Source: Candidatus Gastranaerophilales bacterium (lineage in GTDB: Bacteria > Cyanobacteriota > Vampirovibrionia > Gastranaerophilales > Gastranaerophilaceae). Taken from it: 64,000 nucleotides of DNA. The notes under the pieces were generated by a model. That model searched no databases and had not been told where the DNA came from. It was given only the letters and a program-made list of their open reading frames with translations. A program made the position numbers and the translations under genes. The stretch lies in NCBI GenBank assembly GCA_944324865.1, contig CALUXW010000002.1, positions 1 to 64,000 of the forward strand. The letters run 5' to 3'. Numbering within the stretch: position 1 is the stretch's first letter; each line of letters opens with the position of its first letter. This document shows, one piece after another, positions 48,440 to 51,131 of this stretch.

Positions 48440-49069
48440 TTATTTTTTTAAACTCATTATTTCTTTTATATGTTTTCTGCTTAATTTTTTTGCACCGCCC
48501 AATACCTGTGTGCCAAAATAAGTTTCACTGTAAGCTCTTAATGACTCAAGCGTGTAAAATACTTCTTGCAAAGTATCTGCACCGCTAACTACTCCATGAT
48601 TTTGCATTAAAACAGTATCAGAAATTTTAAAATATTCGACTGTTTCTATTGCAAGCTGCATAGATGAAGGCAGATGATATTTTGCAATAGGAATTTTATT
48701 AAAATATAATACAAATTCAGCCATAATTGGTTCTTGCATTATTCTATTAGAACATGCAAAAGCAGTAATGTATGGACAATGCGAATGTATTATAGCATTT
48801 ATATCGTCCCTCAGGTCATAAATTTGAGTATGTAAAAATTTTTCACTTGATGGTTTTTTCTTTCCATCCAAAACATTTCCATCAAAATCTATTAGCACAA
48901 TATCATCTTCGTCCATATCATTAAGACATACACCTGAGGCTGAAATCAAAATTCCGTCCTTTGTTCTAACGCTAATATTTCCACTTGTAGAAGGGGTCAT
49001 CCCCTTCTGATACAACCTTTTTGACCAATATAAAATATCTTTTTTTGTGCCAACTTCAAAATATTCCAC
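48440..49069 (-). CDS. Class II aldolase/adducin family protein
   Basis: Zinc-dependent sugar-phosphate aldolase or dehydratase of the fuculose-1-phosphate aldolase group. TPSTSGNISVRTKDG (about 26-40), the catalytic-glutamate region KPSSEKFLH, the zinc pair IHSHCPYITAFA and LMQNHGVVSGAD (third zinc histidine) are all present. 209 aa. Substrate not determined; fuculose-, ribulose- and methylthioribulose-phosphates are all possible. GTG start with GGAG upstream. It lies in the same run as thiC. Confidence 0.87.
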   Translation of the reverse strand: MEYFEVGTKKDILYWSKRLYQKGMTPSTSGNISVRTKDGILISASGVCLNDMDEDDIVLIDFDGNVLDGKKKPSSEKFLHTQIYDLRDDINAIIHSHCPYITAFACSNRIMQEPIMAEFVLYFNKIPIAKYHLPSSMQLAIETVEYFKISDTVLMQNHGVVSGADTLQEVFYTLESLRAYSETYFGTQVLGGAKKLSRKHIKEIMSLKK

Positions 49070-49180
49070 TACTTACTCCAAAAATTATTTTTTTATATTG
49101 TACTAAAAACATGTCTATGTTTAAATAATATCAGCGTACTAATTTTTTTGTACGACTCTTTTAAAAAGGACGTGTTTTAA

Positions 49181-50059
49181 ATAACTAAAAATATTAGATT
49201 AGCCAAGCATGCCGGTTTCTGTTACGGTGTCAAAAGGGCGGTTGAGACCACAAAAAAACTTAAATCACAAAACTCAAATAAAAATATTTATGTTTTAGGC
49301 GAGTTAATTCATAATTCTCAAGTTATAAAAGAACTTGAGAATTTAGGAATAAAGACAGTTGAAACATTGCCTGAACATGGTAACGGAATTTGCGTTATAA
49401 GAAGCCATGGAGCATCACTTGAACTTTTAAAAGAAATTGAGGATAAGGGTTACGAGATAGTTGACCTTACTTGTCCTGATGTGAAAAAAGTTCAAAACAA
49501 AGCAATTGAACTTGCAGACGAAGGTTATTTTGTAATTATTTTAGGCAGAGCAGAGCACCCTGAAGTAATGGCAATTTCATCTAATGCAAGAAGTCACGCT
49601 AAAAACTCTGAAGATGTTTTTGTTGCAAAAAATTTAAATTCCATAAAAGAAATTGAAGAAAAAATTAAAAAACAAAATAAAATCGGTATTGTTGTCCAAA
49701 CAACCCAAAGGGTTGAATATTTAAATGAAGTAGTAGATTATCTAAGGACTTTTTGTAAGGATATTAGAATTATGAACACAATTTGCGCTTCAACTTCTCT
49801 TAGACAAAATGAAGCAAAAACATTAGCTCAAGAAAGTGATTTAATGGTAGTTGTCGGTTCTAAAAAAAGTGCTAACACAACTCACTTGGCAGAAATTTTA
49901 CGTCAGATTACAACAACTATTCACATAGAAACAGATTTAGAGCTTAATAATCACAAAGATTTAATTAAAAAAGCTCAAAATATAGGTGTAACAGCAGGCG
50001 CTTCTACACCTGATTACATAATTAATAAAGTAATAGATAAATTATCGAAAGGAGAATAA
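49181..50059 (+). CDS. ispH: 4-hydroxy-3-methylbut-2-enyl diphosphate reductase with apparent AUA start
   Basis: Last step of the MEP pathway, an iron-sulfur enzyme. The three cluster cysteines are C14 (KHAGFCYGVKRAVE), C98 (VDLTCPDVKK) and C202 (NTICASTSLRQ), with HPE and SHGA motifs. Between the in-frame stop at 49178-49180 and C14 there is no ATG, GTG or TTG. ATA at 49181 gives MTKNIRLAKHAGFC, the family's usual N-terminus, with AAAAGGA 10 nt upstream. The first ordinary start, TTG 49367, would remove C14. ATT at 49193 is an alternative. It overlaps the ribosome site of rpsA, so the two are coupled. Confidence 0.88.
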   Translation: MTKNIRLAKHAGFCYGVKRAVETTKKLKSQNSNKNIYVLGELIHNSQVIKELENLGIKTVETLPEHGNGICVIRSHGASLELLKEIEDKGYEIVDLTCPDVKKVQNKAIELADEGYFVIILGRAEHPEVMAISSNARSHAKNSEDVFVAKNLNSIKEIEEKIKKQNKIGIVVQTTQRVEYLNEVVDYLRTFCKDIRIMNTICASTSLRQNEAKTLAQESDLMVVVGSKKSANTTHLAEILRQITTTIHIETDLELNNHKDLIKKAQNIGVTAGASTPDYIINKVIDKLSKGE

Positions 50060-50060
50060 A

Positions 50061-51131
50061 ATGAGTACTTTAGAAACAATCTCGGCCGATGAGTTCGAGA
50101 AAATGCTTGAAGACAGCTACACTTACAAACTAAATGTTGCTGACGTTGTTAAAGGTGTTGTTGTTAAAAAAGAAAAAGATGGCTACTTAGTTGACATCGG
50201 TGCAAAAACAGAAGCATTTTTGCCCAATCGTGAAGTATCCAATTTTACCGACAAAGACCCTGATGAAGTTATTAAACTTTGGGACGAAAAAGAATTTTAT
50301 GTTATGAAAGACGAAGAAGATGATGAAGTTGCGGTTTTATCACTTAAAAAATTATCTTGCGCTCAAGCTTGGCAAAAACTTTCCGACATTAAAGCTAACA
50401 ACGAAAACGTTATCGCAAAAATCGTATCTACAGTTAAAGGTGGCTTAATAGCTGAAATTGAAGGCTTGAGAGGTTTTATCCCATCTTCTCAACTAAGAAC
50501 AGGTTCGCCTTCGGATACTCAAATTAATCAAGAAATTGAAGTTAAAATTCTTGAAGCTGATCCCAAAAGAAATAAACTTATCTTATCTCAAAGACAAGTT
50601 TACACTCAACAAAGAGAAATGGTTGCAGACGAAGTTATCTCTCGTTTAGCAGTTGATCAAATTGTTGAAGGTGAAATTGTAAGAATAGCTGACTTTGGTG
50701 CTTTTGTTGATATTGATGGCATTGACGGACTTCTTCCAATTTCAGAAATTTCTTGGGAAAGAATTAAACATCCGTCTGACGTTGTTTCTTTAGGTCAAAA
50801 AATTGAAGTTAAAGTTATTAAAATTGATGAAGATTTAAAAAGAATTTCATTATCCCTAAAAAGAATGGGCGCTAATCCTTGGGACGAAATTGCAGATAAA
50901 TTTAAAGAAGGCGATGTAATCAAAGGTACAATTAATAAAATTACATCTTTCGGCGCATTTATTAATATCTACCCTGGAGTTGAAGCACTTTTGCCATCAT
51001 CTGAAATATCAGATGAACATGTAAATGTTAATCAACTTTACAACTTGGGTGATGAAATTGAAGTATTAATCAAAAAGTTCACACCACAAGAACACAGAAT
51101 TGGTTTATCTGTTAAAGATATTAAGAACTAG
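50061..51131 (+). CDS. rpsA: 30S ribosomal protein S1
   Basis: 356 aa with four S1 (OB-fold) repeats at about 25-95, 110-175, 195-262 and 280-350. The last three are closest to S1 (e.g. GEIVRIADFGAFVDIDGIDG, and GTINKITSFGAFINIYPGVE). Four repeats is the short form seen in cyanobacteria and Firmicutes. It binds mRNA on the ribosome. Its GGAG lies in the end of ispH. In Clostridia the two are often fused, which makes the adjacency meaningful. Confidence 0.94.
   Translation: MSTLETISADEFEKMLEDSYTYKLNVADVVKGVVVKKEKDGYLVDIGAKTEAFLPNREVSNFTDKDPDEVIKLWDEKEFYVMKDEEDDEVAVLSLKKLSCAQAWQKLSDIKANNENVIAKIVSTVKGGLIAEIEGLRGFIPSSQLRTGSPSDTQINQEIEVKILEADPKRNKLILSQRQVYTQQREMVADEVISRLAVDQIVEGEIVRIADFGAFVDIDGIDGLLPISEISWERIKHPSDVVSLGQKIEVKVIKIDEDLKRISLSLKRMGANPWDEIADKFKEGDVIKGTINKITSFGAFINIYPGVEALLPSSEISDEHVNVNQLYNLGDEIEVLIKKFTPQEHRIGLSVKDIKN

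Follow-up and report, generated by a model that had tools for sequence, protein, structure and literature searches.

A non-AUG start codon and a putative translational-control leader of the ispH-rpsA message in Gastranaerophilales

On the evidence of its own sequence and of its relatives, the ispH gene of a Candidatus Gastranaerophilales bacterium starts at an AUA codon, position 49181 of the window (the whole analysed stretch of 64,000 nucleotides, contig CALUXW010000002.1). This AUA is very probably a real and selected weak start, belonging to a leader that controls translation of the ispH-rpsA message. Almost throughout the order, ispH is kept off AUG, which is best read as an old, selected property with AUA as one of its states.

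Results

An AUA start codon for ispH

The ispH product is identified by the TIGR00216 profile, with 260 bits where the cut-off is 188, plus a Pfam LYTB match, and the gene is present in one copy in the genome. Its frame reads ...GTG TTT TAA, then ATA ACT AAA AAT ATT AGA TTA GCC AAG CAT GCC GGT TTC TGT, and stays open from ATA 49181 to the stop TAA at 50057-50059 (Table 1). It contains no ATG, GTG or TTG 5′ of the first cluster cysteine, which leaves ispH without a canonical in-frame start at its N-terminus; the earliest such codon, TTG 49367, lies well beyond the cysteine. The original prediction had noted both the in-frame TAA and the missing starts, and our reading of the frame agrees.

Table 1 Features of the ispH-rpsA region, in window coordinates
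Feature	Position	Strand	Remarks
Predicted promoter	49098..49126	+	-35 TTGTAC 49098-49103, 17-nt spacer, extended -10 TG.TTAAAT 49118-49126; assigned by eye
5′-terminal leader hairpin AG[CGUAC]..[GUACG]-A-CU	49133..49157	+	Bulged A 49155; supported by fold and covariation
SD of ispH, AAAAAGGA	49163..49170	+	10 nt 5′ of ATA; duplex about -6.5 kcal/mol
In-frame TAA	49178..49180	+	Abuts the ispH start on its 5′ side and closes the frame; 15/15 same-genus loci
ispH start codon AUA	49181..49183	+	15/15 genus loci; aligned with UUG/AUU/CUG starts of relatives
ispH (lytB)	49181..50059	+	292 codons plus TAA; open frame, IspH profile matches
SD of rpsA, AAAGGAG	50048..50054	+	Within the 3′ end of ispH; strong, duplex -9.0 kcal/mol
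rpsA, ribosomal protein S1	50061..51131	+	Four S1 domains; AUG, 1 nt after the ispH stop

As background for start usage we took the open reading frames of the window (54 non-overlapping, of at least 140 codons) together with paired rpsA and infC controls. Among the 35 frames listed by the script, ispH is the sole case with more than 39 nt between the preceding stop and the first ATG, GTG or TTG, its gap being 186 nt; the remaining 19 of the 54 were assigned a canonical start behind a Shine-Dalgarno sequence (SD). For 35 of the 54, a codon-agnostic SD scan of background start usage gave no information. The first candidate start of rpsA is ATG at 74 of its 84 loci; several of the others show an ATG further downstream.

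Within the genus, TAA is directly followed by ATA in all 14 genomes that carry ispH (15 loci, since one of them has two), and AAAGGACGTGTTTTAA followed by ATA is present at every one of these loci. The genomes are Gastranaerophilales MAGs that were assembled separately in several projects; Candidatus Galligastranaerophilus is among them. Codons 3 and 4 of ispH show synonymous changes only, and codon 5, AUU here, varies synonymously between ATT, ATA and ATC, whereas the ATA start is invariant. Such constancy goes beyond drift: across the genus, only 3 of the 22 all-Ile positions of ispH keep one invariant codon, and 19% of its third positions are invariant. Because codons 3 to 5 drift synonymously, coding begins at or before codon 3, and the TAA bars anything 5′ of ATA.

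Three other accounts of this N-terminus bear on the call. A sequencing or assembly error, with ATG misread as ATA, had been named beforehand as the plain alternative; it is rejected, since 14 genomes of the genus, each assembled separately, share the identical ATA. We found no support for it, and its probability is negligible. A start elsewhere through recoding, either at GUG 49172 with readthrough of the UAA or at AUU 49193, is very improbable. GTG TTT TAA is indeed invariant in the genus, and an open in-frame GTG lies at the same place in two relatives (L018 and L020). Yet GUG 49172 stands only 1 nt past the SD, too close for initiation, the frame is closed by stops in the genus and in a further relative (L019), and relatives carry a UUG start at the place homologous to ATA; readthrough or frameshift from this GUG is ruled out by spacing, by the stops and by non-conservation outside the genus. 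AUU 49193, which the original prediction had allowed as a possible start, is rejected since this is the very codon 5 that drifts.

The comparison with other strains that had been called for thus upheld the AUA start, together with the avoidance of ATG in the family described below. The idea of a weak start throttling ispH gains from the same two observations. The 5′ hairpin, the UUG, CUG and AUN starts of relatives and the SD compensation had not been part of that prediction.

One genome of the genus carries its two near-identical ispH loci on separate contigs of about 19 kb (L011 and L015, on G008:C26 and C27), probably an assembly duplicate or a strain mixture.

Start codons across the family and the order

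We scored 134 ispH loci of the family, from about 40 genera of Candidatus Gastranaerophilales. The start was taken as the in-frame candidate whose distance from the leader hairpin came closest to a fixed value, with ATG and GTG equally eligible. The starts are TTG (87), ATA (22), ATT (16), CTG (6) and ATC (3), with no ATG and no GTG. TTG is used in most genera, ATA, ATT and ATC in the clade of the window, and CTG in a few; AUN starts of the infC kind are thus found in that clade, with UUG or CUG elsewhere. The start usually lies 10 codons 5′ of AGFCYG. Mapped on a tree of ispH, the start classes can be explained by 7 changes, compared with 26 when the labels are shuffled; UUG is widespread, and AUA, AUU and AUC fall in one region.

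Individual calls are ambiguous at L058 and L023 (competing codon), L084 and L119. At L119 (about 1498, genus g32) ACG occupies the homologous position, and the candidates are ACG, AUU and GUG. At L084 (genus g35) an insertion between the leader hairpin with its SD and the ispH start breaks the fixed spacing.

In other families of the order, CTG stands at most ispH loci (about 14 of 19 by eye, one left without a call). The sole exceptions seen in the order are L150, L155 and L157, all from the same sister family, which carry ATG at the start position, so AUG has been tolerated at least once. Outside the order, ATG occurs in frame at the N-terminus or close to it in several sampled ispH genes, many loci there being unmatched by the search motif. 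A literature search on start codons of ispH or Gastranaerophilales returned nothing relevant, although a 2020 arXiv list of genes that favour non-AUG starts may partly cover the pattern.

Shine-Dalgarno strength and start codon

At the window locus, the 10-nt spacing between SD and ATA is slightly above ideal, and AAAGGACGTGTTTTAAATA of the SD is invariant across the same-genus loci. Computed against an assumed standard anti-SD, duplex energies are about -6.5 kcal/mol at AUN starts, about -4 at CUG and -2.1 at UUG, compared with -9.0 for rpsA. The SD of ispH is thus poor in the UUG clade and moderate in that of the window, a contrast that amounts to about one independent event because the AUN starts form roughly one clade. 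A stronger SD where the start is weakest points to ispH initiation held at a set low level, and not to decay. The trade-off between start and SD, combined with the fixed distance from hairpin to start, argues for the same conclusion.

Promoter and 5′ leader hairpin

The predicted ispH promoter is conserved in 14 same-genus species, and the sequence just 5′ of it varies. Since a simple scan for the consensus missed it, we count it as inferred. The transcript would begin at about 49133, placing the hairpin at its very 5′ end. ATG 49111 and ATG 49117 are unlikely starts of a conserved leader peptide: they fall within the predicted promoter, and they vary. On the opposite strand, a divergent small aldolase-like gene (48440-49069, recognised by eye) has a GTG start at 49069, about 110 bp from the ispH start.

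The leader hairpin of the window folds on its own. Its shape across leaders is A[C/G]-stem-A-[G/C]U, with fixed flanks and a highly variable stem. Among 32 family leaders, 188 of 188 cells are paired, and in five of the six pairs both partners have changed. The closing pairs were a requirement of the search by which these leaders were chosen, and the paired percentage is therefore biased upward. The covariation score is 0.67, against 0.18 for shuffled and at most 0.12 for slid controls, and pairing drops to 20-36% when the hairpin is slid. Selection for closing pairs does not account for how varied the stem pairs are. The ispH start lies 21-26 nt 3′ of the motif in 132 of the 134 family loci.

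A covariance model of the leader, R1, finds the window copy with E=4e-5 in a search of the window, the one strong match in this genome, and gives ispH as the top match in five of six genomes tested. It is weak in the sixth, G046, as the ispH leader there scores E=0.92 and another site 0.46. That ispH is the clear best match in five of the six speaks against an element common to many genes. Weak second matches (E 0.15-0.75), possibly due to chance, are seen at G020:C9:36967-37018, G046:C4:219907-219958 and G000:C8:14029-14069 (L192, L191 and L193, respectively). The leader matches nothing in Rfam near the gathering cut-off of any family.

The 1-nt gap between ispH and rpsA suggests that the two genes are co-transcribed, which would put this conserved structured leader on the message for S1. 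Translational coupling to rpsA, as put forward in the original prediction, would be compatible with the same gap, but rpsA has its own strong SD and AUG.

AUN starts at infC

In the window's own genome, infC (L209, G000:C44:2996-3205) has an AUU start behind AAGGAG. Elsewhere in the order, infC of most genomes examined (L195-L211) starts with AUU, AUA or AUC behind a good SD, and the classic IF3-type starts of this gene appear conserved in the order. The ribosomes of these genomes therefore very probably initiate on AUN.

Discussion

We propose that the hairpin, the AU-rich linker, the weak SD and the weak start would together make up a translational operator of the ispH-rpsA message, at which a regulator would compete with the 30S subunit. 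The weak ispH start would be essential to its working. As regulator we would first consider free S1, which the second gene encodes; such autogenous control, suggested by analogy, is the version we favour, if with more doubt than confidence. In its fullest form, the leader would be a new autoregulatory RNA, a 5′-terminal hairpin operator found across Gastranaerophilales whose repressor, S1 or IspH, works only with the ispH start off AUG, and in which the identity of the codon (UUG, CUG, AUA, AUU or AUC) belongs to the switch as a conserved component. This fuller version comes near to an even prospect, though it falls short of one. Weak initiation in the cell, and its regulation, we infer from comparative sequence data.

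The main rival is a plain throttle, in which the weak start sets a low and constant ratio of IspH to S1 on the shared message and the hairpin merely protects the mRNA end. Its chance of being right is appreciable, if well below even, and a stoichiometric throttle with a protective 5′ hairpin would account for much of what is seen. The cell needs ribosome-like amounts of S1 but not of the Fe-S enzyme IspH; rpsA lies directly 3′ with a strong SD and AUG; the hairpin is predicted at the very 5′ end; and the strengths of SD and start codon compensate each other. However, a throttle has no need for a fixed distance of 22-25 nt from hairpin to start, for conserved hairpin flanks or for a leader peculiar to the ispH-rpsA operon.

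Sensing of IF3 is a rather improbable alternative. AUA, AUU and AUC are strongly discriminated by IF3, so that ispH, and rpsA if coupled, would track the IF3 level as infC does. The same genomes start infC with these codons behind good SDs, and ispH in the clade of the window has converged on that codon class. Yet IF3 discriminates less against UUG, the start in most of the family, and CUG, that of other families; moreover, infC is absent among the matches of the R1 leader model.

Control of this kind is itself known, as in infC, rpsT and rpsA; the structured leader of ispH-rpsA is new. Like ispH here, infC (AUU in E. coli, AUA in S. aureus) has a conserved AUN start behind an SD, a case of weak-codon control of a translation-related gene. 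In contrast, ispH is a gene for a metabolic enzyme, UUG and CUG prevail over AUN in the order, and the leader has a conserved 5′ hairpin. A conserved AUA or AUU start with a strengthened SD is also shared with ccpN, cvfC1 and citZ of S. aureus, where such starts, combined with extended SDs, reach about 10% of the output of AUG (PMC13009471). Those are other genes in another phylum, and they are not known to have a conserved leader hairpin.

Closer to ribosomal proteins, rpsT (S20) of some gamma-proteobacterial families has a weak UUG start in its message, proposed to let a repressor compete with ribosomes (PMC10931766). There the weak start is on the ribosomal protein gene itself and comes with no known conserved mRNA structure, whereas here the gene that bears it lies 5′ of rpsA, and conservation extends to the mRNA structure. 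Repression of the gamma-proteobacterial S1 message by its own product works only in the absence of a canonical SD at the rpsA start (PMC10931766). That operator combines a structured leader, an AU-rich linker and a degenerate SD, and the ispH SD of the UUG clade is similarly poor. Unlike it, the leader described here has one short hairpin of another fold, placed 5′ of ispH and joined to a weak start codon, with S1 binding as a proposal; the SD in the genus of the window is fairly good. S1 has four domains here, and repression of E. coli rpsA needs D6. Finally, ispH and rpsA turn up time and again as fused or neighbouring genes, a pattern that lacks an explanation, and IspH-RPS1 fusion proteins link the same two genes in anaerobic gut bacteria (PMC4746011). 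Here they are two separate genes with opposite predicted initiation strengths.

A whole order of common uncultured gut bacteria thus appears to hold the essential ispH on weak starts, with a compensating SD and a matching leader, which provides a testable tie between isoprenoid synthesis and ribosomal protein S1. Starts other than AUG, GUG and UUG are usually dismissed as annotation errors. The present case suggests that gene callers limited to ATG, GTG and TTG are likely to mis-start or truncate ispH in these genomes.
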